A stretch of 22,833 nucleotides of DNA from a virus. The notes under the pieces are model-generated. The model made no database searches. It was not told the origin of the DNA and saw only the letters and a program-made list of their open reading frames with translations. The position numbers were made by a program, and so were the translations under genes. Below, in pieces: positions 3,310-10,437 of the stretch. The DNA lies in the IMG/VR virus record IMGVR_UViG_3300030106_003644, positions 1 to 22,833 of that record; one strand, written 5' to 3'. Within the stretch, counting starts at the first letter, position 1. Each line of letters opens with the position of its first letter.

Positions 3310-3614
3310 TGTTTATTCCATTCTATTATTGCTAGAACATCATCTGCAAAATATTCATATCCTCTCATCTCGTCATCCCAGTCATCAATACTCTGCATAC
3401 CATTCTCTCTTGCTGTTTCTCTGTTTTTTTCTTTCACTTCGTCACAAGCTTCTTTTATATCATCTAAAGTTTTAGTCATTCTCTCTATTATTCCTACATC
3501 AGAATGATTGTACATATCCTCCTCACAAGGAGGACAAAGCCAGTTTATTCCTACCATCCTAGTATTATCTCCACCAACTTGACTAAGACACGCATCACAA
3601 ATTTCTTTACCCAT
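3306..3614 (-). CDS. Zinc-ribbon-like small protein
   Basis: 102 residues. C6-x2-C9 (CDAC) and C27-x2-C30 (CPPC) form a CxxC-17-CxxC knuckle typical of zinc ribbons that bind nucleic acid or protein. A charged helix follows (about 45-70), then an acidic C-terminus (DDWDDEMRGYEYFADDVLAIIEW). Function is unknown. Translation starts from the repeated AGGAGTAAGTAATG leader embedded in the last codons of the upstream gene, with a TAATG stop-start overlap, and it overlaps the next gene by ATGA. Confidence 0.75.
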   Translation of the reverse strand: MGKEICDACLSQVGGDNTRMVGINWLCPPCEEDMYNHSDVGIIERMTKTLDDIKEACDEVKEKNRETARENGMQSIDDWDDEMRGYEYFADDVLAIIEWNKQ

Positions 3615-4036
3615 TACTTACTCCTTATCTTTTCTAAATGCTTGTGTATGTATTTTGGTATTCTGTCATATCCATCTCTGTCAAACACCTTTTCTCTTGG
3701 AATTAATTCTCCATCAATAGTATATTCATCTATATAATCTTTTGGAATATCAAAATGACTTGGTAATGTTCCATCATGTCTTAGCCATTCCTCATCCCAA
3801 GTATCCCATCCCCATCCATCCTCTGGACCTACCCATCTTCGTCTAACTAATACAAACTCTCCCTTGCAATTTGCTTCTGGCTCTCCCTCTCGTGTTTTAC
3901 AATCATGATTTCTCCAATCCTCTATATCCCCTTTATCTAAGTCATCCCAATTTACACACTCGTGCAACTCTATTATCTCTCCATTTTCAGTATGGTAATA
4001 AAACCATTCATAAGTTATTTGACTACCTTTTTCCAT
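3614..4036 (-). CDS. Trp-rich acidic phage protein, unknown function
   Basis: 140 residues from the ATG at 4036, chosen because AAGGA lies 7 bases ahead; an in-frame ATG at 4060 adds MNRKKEIK without a ribosome site. The protein is acidic and aromatic-rich, with a cluster WVGPEDGWGWDTWDEEW at about residues 68-84 and a basic C-terminus (HKHLEKIRSK). Two or three cysteines are scattered and do not make a clear zinc site. No known family was recognised. Its last codons include the ribosome site of the next gene, and the stop overlaps that start (TAATG). Confidence 0.75.
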   Translation of the reverse strand: MEKGSQITYEWFYYHTENGEIIELHECVNWDDLDKGDIEDWRNHDCKTREGEPEANCKGEFVLVRRRWVGPEDGWGWDTWDEEWLRHDGTLPSHFDIPKDYIDEYTIDGELIPREKVFDRDGYDRIPKYIHKHLEKIRSK

Positions 4037-4107: not shown

Positions 4108-4278
4108 CTATTTATGAGGTTGATTAAATTTCATCATCAATAAAAATAACTCATCAATGACTTTTTTTATTTCGTTTTTCATTTCTACTGCACCTGCTGT
4201 TGACCAACCAGTTAGTTTGAAGGTGTCGATATTTTCTAACATATCGATTACATCAGTTAAATCTAAAACTTTTTTCAT
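4108..4278 (-). CDS. Small hypothetical protein (56 residues)
   Basis: A 56-residue ORF with ATG at 4278 and AGGAG at 4286-4290, 7 bases ahead. The protein begins MKKVLDLTDVIDMLENIDTF and is predicted helical, with a GWSTAGAVEMK segment in the middle. It is the first gene after the promoter at 4338-4366, with a leader of about 53 bases. An upstream ATG at 4301 starts a nine-codon frame, including stop, that ends in an ATGA overlap with this gene, so a leader peptide could affect its translation. No family recognised. Confidence 0.7.
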   Translation of the reverse strand: MKKVLDLTDVIDMLENIDTFKLTGWSTAGAVEMKNEIKKVIDELFLLMMKFNQPHK

Positions 4279-6505: not shown

Positions 6506-6517
6506 TTTATCTCCTTG

Positions 6518-6577
6518 CTTATTCATTTGATTAGGTATGGGCATGGACTAAATGAATAAGAAAAAAAATCCATGCCC
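6518..6577 (-). promoter_or_regulatory. Candidate H-type RNA pseudoknot in the primase leader
   Basis: In the leftward mRNA, stem 1 pairs GGGCAUGGA (6577-6569) with UCCAUGCCC (6547-6539), 9 bp. Stem 2 pairs CUUAUUCAUUU (6560-6550) with AAAUGAAUAAG (6528-6518), 11 bp. The strands alternate, so the two stems form an H-type pseudoknot with loops of 8 (all U), 2 and 10 bases. Its 3' end is one base before the Shine-Dalgarno (6516-6511). All pairs are Watson-Crick. The likely role is control of primase translation; a ligand or protein is unknown. Confidence 0.65.
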
Positions 6578-7073: not shown

Positions 7074-7250
7074 CTATCTTTCAACATTTTCAAACTGTTC
7101 AGTAACGTCTAAGTATCCGATTACATTCATGTCGTACCCTATGTCGCCTAATACATCATGTAAATCCTCTCCCCTAGACATAACTATTTTTATATATGTA
7201 TGACTTGGCTCTACTGGATTATTTATACTTATAATTCTAGTCTCGTTCAT
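7074..7250 (-). CDS. Small hypothetical protein (58 residues)
   Basis: A 58-residue ORF with ATG at 7250 and AAGGAG upstream. It has alternating beta-type residues (HTYIKIVMSRGEDLHDVL) and ends EQFENVER. The stop lies in the ribosome site of the next gene. No family or motif was recognised. It is supported by its ribosome site, tight packing and lack of any better reading in the interval. Confidence 0.65.
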   Translation of the reverse strand: MNETRIISINNPVEPSHTYIKIVMSRGEDLHDVLGDIGYDMNVIGYLDVTEQFENVER

Positions 7251-7261
7251 ATTTTTTCTCC

Positions 7262-7558
7262 TTAATTTTCTGCGTCATAAATCTTATCGTTTATGTCTTG
7301 TTGCCAACGTGCTTTGTCTTTCTCAAACTCTGCAATCCATCTATCTAATAATTCATGCAAGTCTTTTGCTTTCAAGTGAGAATGTTTTGTTCTGCTTACA
7401 TAGTCTGTGTTATACATAAACCTCAAACCCTGTTTACCACTTAACACTACTTGGTTTTCCCACTCGTCATTTATATTCTCCTCTGGAAATCCCTCGTCCA
7501 TAAGAAACTCTAAATCCTCTAAAGCATCTTTGACTGCAAACCTTATAAACTTTTTCAT
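7262..7558 (-). CDS. Small hypothetical protein
   Basis: 98 residues, starting MKKFIRFAVKDALEDLEFLM from an AGGAGTAAGTAAATG leader. Charged helices flank a central segment with aromatic residues (GLRFMYNTDYVSRTKHSH), and the C-terminal helix is acidic/basic with WIAEFEKDKARWQQDI. No family recognised and no signal peptide. It is packed closely between small genes of the same type, as usual in early phage regions. Confidence 0.75.
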   Translation of the reverse strand: MKKFIRFAVKDALEDLEFLMDEGFPEENINDEWENQVVLSGKQGLRFMYNTDYVSRTKHSHLKAKDLHELLDRWIAEFEKDKARWQQDINDKIYDAEN

Positions 7559-7569
7559 TTACTTACTCC

Positions 7570-7899
7570 TTATAATTCCTCGTAATGATTTGTTATCCCT
7601 ACTCTGTAATCTGATACACCATCATGGTCACTCAATCTTACATCATAAAGACGTTTACCTAATTGTTTTATTGTAATGTTCCACTCGCTATCTGGTCCAA
7701 TCATGTCTACAATATCTCTTGTTTTCTTGATTTCAAAACCACCTAACACTTCTGCATTATTCCAACCATCATTGTGTGAAGTTACTACTGCATACCTCCC
7801 AACATGGTCTGAAAACATTTGATTTAATTGTTCCAAATAATCATCCCATTCAAAATCATCACAATTATTTGTTATGTATAGTTCTTTTTGTTTACTCAT
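7570..7899 (-). CDS. Small hypothetical protein
   Basis: 109 residues beginning MSKQKELYITNNCDDFEWDD. It is acidic in the first third and ends with a patterned segment (LYDVRLSDHDGVSDYRVGI). No known domain was recognised. The start has AGGAGTAAGTAAATG, preceded by the AT-rich leader AAATAAATAAG also seen near 9945. A non-coding gap of 114 bases precedes it. Its TAA is immediately before the ribosome site of the next gene. Confidence 0.75.
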   Translation of the reverse strand: MSKQKELYITNNCDDFEWDDYLEQLNQMFSDHVGRYAVVTSHNDGWNNAEVLGGFEIKKTRDIVDMIGPDSEWNITIKQLGKRLYDVRLSDHDGVSDYRVGITNHYEEL

Positions 7900-8013
7900 T
7901 TACTTACTCCTTATTTATTTATTTTGTGGCGAATATACTTCCTCTTTTGTATATCTCTTACTTTGTTTTATACTTAACTCTGATTAATCACAGGAATAAA
8001 ACCACTTATATAT

Positions 8014-8247
8014 TTATTTTATTTTTTTGTATACGATTTTTATTTCGTATTCATTACGATTTGACTTGATTAATTTAGCCAATTCTGTTCTGTATTTTCT
8101 GAAATAACTTTTTGGAAATATCCAAGTATCAAGATAATCATCAGACTTTGCGTGCATATCTGTTACCCAATTAATTACTTCCCACATTTCATTGAAATCT
8201 TTTTGTGGTATCCAATTAGTTATGTCTATTTCATTTTCATTATTCAA
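8014..8247 (-). CDS. Small hypothetical protein with a TTG start
   Basis: 77 residues. The start is TTG at 8247-8245 with a strong AAGGAG (8254-8259) six bases ahead; no ATG in this frame competes. The protein has WIPQKDFNEMWEVINWVTDM near the N-terminus and a basic C-terminus (EIKIVYKKIK). No family recognised. It is the first gene after promoter P2, with a leader of about 25 bases. The non-consensus start could lower its translation compared with neighbours. Confidence 0.7.
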   Translation of the reverse strand: MNNENEIDITNWIPQKDFNEMWEVINWVTDMHAKSDDYLDTWIFPKSYFRKYRTELAKLIKSNRNEYEIKIVYKKIK

Positions 8248-8887: not shown

Positions 8888-9187
8888 TTACTCCTTAATT
8901 ACTCTATTAGTTATTTTGTTTCTTAGTGTATAACCTATACCAGAATCAAAAACATTAACACTAATTGTTTTATAGTTTGAAAGATTTTCAACTGTTCCTA
9001 TATGTTTTGATGTTGTCATACTGTATACACTACGATAAATTTTCTTTTTCTTTCGGTCTGCTATTAGCAACGCATAAGAATATAATTTATCTCCTATACA
9101 ATGTAGACTGTTCCTATTTTCTATATATGATGTATCATTATTTATAAACTTTTTTATAAATCCATCGTTAGTATTTTCATACTTCAT
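8888..9187 (-). CDS. Small hypothetical protein
   Basis: 99 residues from ATG 9187, chosen because AAGAG lies at the right distance; an in-frame ATG at 9211 adds MNKKRVSK without a ribosome site. The protein is basic and beta-rich (SYALLIADRKKKKIYRSVY, NYKTISVNVFDSGIGYTL). No family recognised. The upstream ATGAATAAG is the same motif seen before the genes at 4278, 4036 and 6505. Its stop is in the ribosome site of the next gene. Confidence 0.7.
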   Translation of the reverse strand: MKYENTNDGFIKKFINNDTSYIENRNSLHCIGDKLYSYALLIADRKKKKIYRSVYSMTTSKHIGTVENLSNYKTISVNVFDSGIGYTLRNKITNRVIKE

Positions 9188-9735: not shown

Positions 9736-9945
9736 TTATAACTCCTTTATGTATACTTTATGTTCAATATCAAAGTATTTTATTTTATTAGTTTTTATAT
9801 TTTGTACTTTGTAATATGTATATTTTGGGTCAATAATATCATCTACATAATTTAATAACTTATACATATTTTTAAGTTTTTTATCTGTATAAAATATATC
9901 ATTATTAGATATCTTATAAATTGATGTTTGTTTTATATTTGTCAT
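9736..9945 (-). CDS. Small basic hypothetical protein, first gene of the leftward block
   Basis: 69 residues, rich in Lys, Tyr, Ile and Asn (MTNIKQTSIYKISNNDIFYT, then KYTYYKVQNIKTNKIKYFDI). Such composition follows from the very high A+T here. It starts from AAGAGTAAGTAATG with an upstream AAATAAATAAG leader, 47 bases from the expected start of promoter P3. As the first gene after the divergent region it should be expressed early. No family recognised. Confidence 0.7.
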   Translation of the reverse strand: MTNIKQTSIYKISNNDIFYTDKKLKNMYKLLNYVDDIIDPKYTYYKVQNIKTNKIKYFDIEHKVYIKEL

Positions 9946-9998
9946 TACTTACTCTTTCTTATTTATTTATTCAGTAAACATTTATTACTGTTGATACC

Positions 9999-10077: not shown

Positions 10078-10301
10078 ATTATTTATATGGGTAATAAAAG
10101 CGTGTTATTTTTATACTGTTATGGTGTCGATTTATTGGGATATCGTGGCATTATCACAAGCAACATTAATAATTATTTTAAGTGTTATATTTAACTTATT
10201 TTTAGTGTTTTTTTAGTGTTATAGTTAGACCGCCAATACCTGTGCCGTTACTGTTGTATATATATGTACCCTATTAGAGTGCTGAACTGTTTTGTAGTAT
10301 T

Positions 10302-10437
10302 TATAACAGTTATATAACAGGTGTTATAAGTGTTATAAAACAAGTGTTATAACTGTTATATAACAGTCCTAAAAGTGTTATATAACACCCCCTATATATA
10401 TATATATATATATAAATTATATTGTTATAACGTAACA
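10302..10437. repeat. GTGTTATA repeat and palindrome array
   Basis: GTGTTATA starts at 10321, 10330, 10344 and 10375, with two more at 10182 and 10216. The related TATAACAG occurs at 10302 and 10313. Two perfect 14-bp palindromes are CTGTTATATAACAG (10353-10366) and GTGTTATATAACAC (10375-10388). A degenerate palindrome TGTTATAACGTAACA is at 10423-10437. Some neighbours are 9 or 11 bases apart. The array lies between diverging operons, upstream of the terminase genes. It could be operators, iterons of an origin, or stacked extended -10-like elements. Confidence 0.75.
10393..10414. repeat. TA dinucleotide run
   Basis: Eleven consecutive TA units lie between the palindromes and the last degenerate palindrome. 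Such DNA melts easily and would suit an unwinding element of an origin or an open promoter region. It could also vary in length between genomes or be affected by assembly. Confidence 0.8.

Follow-up and report, generated by a model that had tools for sequence, protein, structure and literature searches.

An interleaved two-stem element adjoins the ribosome site of a primase-helicase gene

We analyzed a 22,833-nucleotide stretch of viral DNA (the window), covering positions 1 to 22,833 of IMG/VR virus record IMGVR_UViG_3300030106_003644, and concentrated on an RNA element in the leader of a leftward gene at 6505-4472. The 677-aa product of this gene carries Prim-Pol, PriCT_1 and AAA_25 domains, in agreement with its earlier assignment as a primase-helicase. 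Before its Shine-Dalgarno (SD) sequence, the minus-strand leader holds two interleaved stems, both perfect and with no base in common, of 9 bp (stem 1, S1) and 11 bp (stem 2, S2), joined in an H-type arrangement by loops of 8 (L1), 2 (L2) and 10 (L3) nt. An earlier note, made from the sequence alone, had reported this arrangement, and its arms, loops and coordinates were all exact on direct reading of the minus strand. The two interleaved helices and their compatible loops match an H-type pseudoknot in sequence and geometry, which is not proof of folding. The parts of the element, hereafter the cassette, and the start of the gene that follows are listed in the direction of transcription.

6587-6578, minus: 5' border of the cassette, CAATATTACA, with TAATATTACA in relatives (alignment)
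6577-6569, minus: S1 5' arm, GGGCATGGA (direct reading; present in 8/8 copies, with a compensated G-to-A change in L004)
6568-6561, minus: L1, eight U (alignment; 7 to 9 U among relatives)
6560-6550, minus: S2 5' arm or "anti-box", CTTATTCATTT (no variation in any copy)
6549-6548, minus: L2, AG (direct reading)
6547-6539, minus: S1 3' arm, TCCATGCCC (direct reading and alignment)
6538-6529, minus: L3, ATACCTAATC (alignment; the most variable part of the cassette)
6528-6518, minus: S2 3' arm, AAATGAATAAG, a copy of a pre-SD leader box found again at other early genes
6517, minus: single C between the S2 3' arm and the SD (direct reading)
6516-6511, minus: SD of the primase gene, AAGGAG (direct reading)
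6505-6503, minus: ATG of the primase gene (direct reading)
6505-4472, minus: primase-helicase gene, 677 aa, with Prim-Pol, PriCT_1 and AAA_25 domains

The cassette is conserved as a unit while its neighbours change

S1 and its loop were present in eight IMG/VR records, namely the window and seven others (L001-L004, L142, L143 and L144), with one copy per record. L142, L143 and L144 were found with the S1 pattern and a free loop, a search with the loop only returned the same seven records, and the conservation figures rest on six distinct cassette sequences. The primases of L001-L004 are 96-97% identical to that of the window and have the same leader; among the five primase leaders, differences within the pseudoknot are confined to L1 (U8/U9), L3 or a compensated change in S1. 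The pseudoknot arrangement is thus in the sequence and is conserved as a unit. More distant primase homologues (L078-L082, 34-53% identical) have no such leader. The primase leader of L078 (about 3500-3620, minus) holds a different large hairpin, GTGGTAACGCAAG...CTTGTGTTACCAC, of -30.6 kcal/mol, with a sub-threshold Rfam match.

The genes at both sides of the cassette differ among these records. It precedes the primase in the window and L001-L004, a C5 cytosine DNA methyltransferase in L142 (Pfam PF00145, E 1e-31) and in L143, where the gene was assigned by near-identity to the L142 sequence, and a 63-aa open reading frame without family match in L144. Upstream of it we found at least four kinds of gene with no mutual blastp match, and in G003, G004 and G048 the upstream gene ends at the TAA of the 5' border. 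From AATATTACAG to AAATGAATAA the window and L142/L143 share their sequence, which diverges soon after, so the conserved unit and the pseudoknot have equal borders. L144 has relatives, as judged by eye, of the window genes at 7899 and 4278 flanking the cassette, which makes the slot comparable. Prim-Pol was not found in L142, L143 or L144, records that may be fragments, and L142 encodes an AAA_25 protein and, separately, a primase of CHC2 type. The element thus looks, from the comparison of these records, like a portable translation-control cassette rather than the private switch of a replication gene.

Compared with its close relatives, the primase gene of the window differs at 58-81 of 2034 positions. 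Its first 150 coding bases (6505-6356) hold 27 differences from these relatives, two of them in the first 60, and look like a swapped segment.

Chance expectation and folding of the two stems

The window has a single H-type pair of at least 9 + 11 bp, and 0 of 100 dinucleotide shuffles have one; at an 8 + 8 bp threshold the shuffles average 0.13 matches. When 592 kb of sequence (the window and kin phages) was scanned for two-stem structures, only the element and its homologues fell below -20 kcal/mol, the runners-up lying at -18 to -14 kcal/mol. The element, which lies between two phage genes, is real and non-random.

Nested folding recovers S1 alone, as 11 bp with two extra pairs at -18.3 kcal/mol, an energy that is ordinary relative to shuffles (z -1.24). 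S1 has a pairing probability of 0.99-1.00 in three contexts, and the loop and leader box are otherwise largely open. We estimated the energy of both stems crudely, as stacking plus one pseudoknot penalty of 9.6 kcal/mol, and obtained -24.2 kcal/mol for the pseudoknot versus -18.5 kcal/mol for extended S1 alone. The element probably folds into a pseudoknot beside the ribosome site, with S1 and S2 predicted to form together. The alternative raised earlier, that the stems are exclusive and act as a switch, is not required, as S1 and S2 use separate bases, but the two extra S1 pairs do consume bases of L1 and L2. A start-codon switch, in which the anti-box pairs over 10 bp with AAATGAATAA (6507-6498), was a weak option at -4.2 versus -7.2 kcal/mol for S2.

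The two stems vary differently among the copies. S1 is paired in 100% of alignment cells and includes a compensatory change of G-C to A-U in L004. S2 is perfect and unvarying in the five primase leaders; its terminal C-G pair is gone in L142/L143 and one A-U becomes A.A in L144, in each case with the 5' arm unaltered. Overall, nine S2 pairs are invariant, two are each broken in one distinct sequence and 97% of cells are paired, with arm energies of -9.1, -7.5 and -6.1 kcal/mol. The loop of L144 can alternatively pair with a box-like TAAATGAAGGAG that contains the SD (-11.9 kcal/mol; p=0.07 versus shuffled loops). Because the 3' arm changes without change in the 5' arm and L144 has this alternative pairing, S2 is plausible from the alignment but not proven, and is without covariation support. 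The earlier note had proposed a search for compensatory changes in the leaders of related phages and named uncompensated stem changes as evidence against the pseudoknot: compensation was seen at one S1 pair (L004) and at none in S2, which loses 1 of its 11 pairs in three copies, a result that by this measure goes in part against the pseudoknot.

L009 and L012 contain the same 11-nt arms in unrelated context, and in two kin phages a possible H-type pseudoknot (6 + 8 bp) lies near a gene 3' end, at 6398-6356 (minus) of L108 and 9822-9864 (plus) of L137, where coding may explain it.

The loop is antisense to a recurring leader box

The S2 3' arm is one instance of a leader box, TAAATGAATAAG, located before the SD of several leftward genes. 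At two or fewer mismatches, the window has six sites, with minus-strand starts at 9969, 9214, 7921, 6529, 4304 and 4063, including the following three.

9214-9203, minus: leader box TAAATGAATAAG, gene start at 9187; a 16-nt run here is fully complementary to the loop of the cassette
4304-4293, minus: leader box TAAATGAATAAA, gene start at 4278
4063-4052, minus: leader box TAAATGAATAGA, gene start at 4036

With gene starts called by a simple SD rule, boxes at one or fewer mismatches precede 5, 4, 4, 4, 2, 2 and 4 genes in seven cassette records and none in G047, where the contig ends at the cassette. In the 21 kin records that lack the cassette the count is likewise 0, permuted versions of the motif yield about 0.05, and bacterial genomes show ten scattered matches to the box pattern. 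In its full form, TAA-A-TGA-A-TAA, the box places stop codons in all three frames directly before the ribosome site.

The S1 loop is the antisense of this box, and it matches the box of another gene better than its own: the longest perfect run is 16 nt at the 9187 gene versus 11 nt in its own leader, and the corresponding duplex energies in the window are -18.9 and -14.0 kcal/mol. Runs of 15 nt occur at two genes in G001, G003 and G004. The match of the loop to other leaders was equaled by 1 to 3 of 300 shuffled loops in G000, G001, G003 and G004, by 13 of 300 in G040, a weak result, and by 118 of 300 in G048, no better than shuffled. This preference for another box opens a reading in trans, which is weighed below.

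A tentative model for control in cis

We tentatively favor a model in which the cassette acts in cis, its loop masking the A-rich pre-SD box through the pseudoknot and so tuning the gene that follows, with a possible further action in trans. The cassette would be an intercistronic RNA element in an uncultured tailed phage, within its leftward (early) operon; the stable 9-11 bp hairpin S1 of the cassette would display a 21-nt loop antisense to the A-rich box adjoining the SD. When loop and box pair in cis (S2), the resulting H-type pseudoknot would cover the A-rich stretch, an enhancer or standby site, and leave little room at the ribosome site. Translation of whichever gene follows would be lowered or delayed until S2 is opened, be it by temperature, by a factor or by ribosomes coming from the gene upstream. 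The cassette would be retained while the genes at both sides are exchanged. We infer both the repressive effect and its release; since a pseudoknot can also help to recruit ribosomes, as in tisB, the sequence does not tell whether the effect is positive or negative. The U-tract of L1 could, speculatively, lengthen pairing with the boxes of other genes (AAATGAATAAGAAAA) or form U.A-U triples.

The setting suggests that the cassette lies inside an operon, since three near-consensus leftward promoters are located elsewhere (10028-9999, 8308-8280 and 4366-4338) and a strong hairpin follows the primase stop (4468-4425, minus; 44 nt, -19.1 kcal/mol, without a clear U-tract), after which comes the promoter at 4366-4338. 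At the site itself there was no convincing promoter, terminator, tRNA or Rfam family. The best promoter candidate was a weak TTGGCA/AACAAT (9/12) with no conserved -35, its -35 lying in exchanged upstream sequence; no terminator was found at the cassette; a replication origin at the element was rejected because the GC-skew minimum is near 10.0 kb instead; and a frameshift signal was rejected because the upstream genes terminate before S1 starts.

Several known systems resemble parts of this model. A/U-rich translation enhancers are known (PMC2176067), and the small RNA (sRNA) GcvB represses yifK by base-pairing to an enhancer that directly precedes the SD (PMC3879156); GcvB is a separate sRNA acting in trans, whereas the cassette has box and anti-box within one leader. 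The 5' pseudoknot of tisB mRNA, a standby site, likewise acts on recruitment of 30S and ribosomal protein S1, but it promotes translation from about 100 nt away (PMC7708055).

Several points weigh against the cis model. The covariation in S1 alone is not significant (87/500 shuffles), and S2 has zero compensatory and two uncompensated changes among the six distinct sequences. The spacing from S2 to the SD differs among copies, so that the earlier statement that the structure ends one base before the SD holds for the primase copies but not for the others, where the SD stands further away. The two-stem energy comes from a crude model. Finally, kinship confounds the association between boxes and cassettes, and the early arm is missing from several of the kin contigs. 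If the model is true, the fold known from T4 gene 32 would have been put to a different use, linked to a leader box that recurs rather than to a single protein, and it would show how phages retain gene control during gene swapping.

Alternative explanations

Among the alternatives, we rank a hairpin for recombination or stability first, followed by regulation in trans, autoregulation and ligand sensing. In the first, which we regard as unlikely, the cassette is a homology patch for gene shuffling, or an mRNA processing or stability hairpin that shields transcript ends as a barrier; it would not control translation specifically, and S2 is a by-product of an inverted leader box. The swapping of neighbours on both sides of a cassette that remains is what such a linker would produce, its first TAA can serve as the stop codon of the upstream gene, and the loop reads as the inverted leader box TAAATGAATAAGAAAA. 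A parallel is offered by the T4-type PeSLs (promoter early stem-loops), small intergenic stem-loops that are retained while flanking genes exchange and are described as mediators of gene shuffling among T4-like phages (PMC4503421); the cassette, too, is kept amid at least four upstream and three downstream neighbours. However, the cassette differs in having no consistent or convincing promoter and no terminator or terminator tail, unlike the composite of promoter and terminator-like stem-loop that marks a PeSL, and in being present once per record with a loop antisense to a leader box. Moreover, a linker does not require perfect loop conservation or loop-box pairing in nearly all copies.

It is more doubtful that the loop, as mRNA or as a processed fragment, acts mainly in trans on the boxes of other early genes, with the cis pseudoknot as its resting or self-limiting state. 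The longer and stronger match at the 9187 gene and the 15-nt runs in three further records would fit this, as would conservation of the entire loop beyond the 11 nt that S2 needs and the presence of boxes in cassette-bearing records only. Nevertheless, matches come easily between a U-rich loop and an A-rich box, the results are no better than shuffled loops in G048 and weak in G040, and S2 of the same leader may keep the loop occupied. Nor is there any hint that a separate small RNA is made; all three near-consensus leftward promoters are elsewhere. A combined scheme appears improbable in which the cassette represses the next gene in cis as well as several other early genes in trans, a single mRNA leader thereby coordinating a regulon of early genes.

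Autoregulation of the gp32 type, in which the primase-helicase or a phage single-stranded DNA-binding protein would bind the pseudoknot and repress primase translation, is very improbable. The element does stand before a replication gene, and the earlier note had cited T4 gene 32 as a precedent. The leader of gene 32 in T4, T2 and RB69 likewise has an mRNA H-type pseudoknot 5' of the ribosome-binding site of a replication gene, with an A+U-rich neighbour (PMC3014915, PMC535899), and the T4 pseudoknot nucleates gp32 binding onto an A+U-rich stretch containing that site (PMC3014915, PMC535899); a 2010 review considered it perhaps the sole viral pseudoknot for translational autoregulation (PMC3014915). 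The gene 32 pseudoknot, however, is 67 nt away from the start codon on its 5' side, and the protein that binds it is encoded by the gene under its control, whereas the cassette ends one base before the primase SD and does not stay with one gene. Since it also stands before a methyltransferase gene and a small open reading frame, autoregulation by the primase is unlikely and the precedent is disfavored. The failure to find Prim-Pol in L142-L144 (possibly fragments), the separate CHC2-type primase of L142 and the missing element in L078-L082 also speak against it.

A pseudoknot that senses a metabolite or ion has, in our judgment, scarcely any likelihood. The SAM-II, SAM-V and preQ1 riboswitches share an H-type pseudoknot at the ribosome site and a U-rich first loop, but the cassette matches none of these Rfam models, has longer stems (9 and 11 bp) and leaves the SD outside the knot; the downstream genes have no common metabolic theme. 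In Rfam searches, the window had no match at gathering score, and for the element stretch a cutoff relaxed to E 10 still gave no riboswitch family. A translated upstream open reading frame or attenuator peptide (ATGGATTTTTTTTCTTATTCATTTAG..., MDFFSYSFSPCPYLIK) with incidental repeats can practically be dismissed: a 16-codon frame in the window starts within S1 and ends within the S2 3' arm, but it is shifted by U9 in L001 and U7 in L144, and its ATG is ATA in L004, where pairing is kept.

Other observations

Searches with blastn against cultured phages gave no match, tblastn gave only distant Prim-Pol matches, and no relative of the primase was found in bacterial genomes. In L142, a 294-aa frame without family match (7240-8124, minus) almost wholly overlaps the methyltransferase frame (7169-8176) in another reading frame. 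Within the window, the divergent intergenic region at 10286-10398 is dense in nested inverted repeats on TGTTATAA/TTATAACA and coincides with the GC-skew sign change, making these repeats a candidate operator or replication origin. The gene at 2820-2077 (minus) encodes a 247-aa protein with no Pfam or PHROG match and an acidic C-terminal tail, which could, as a guess, be the single-stranded DNA-binding protein of the phage.
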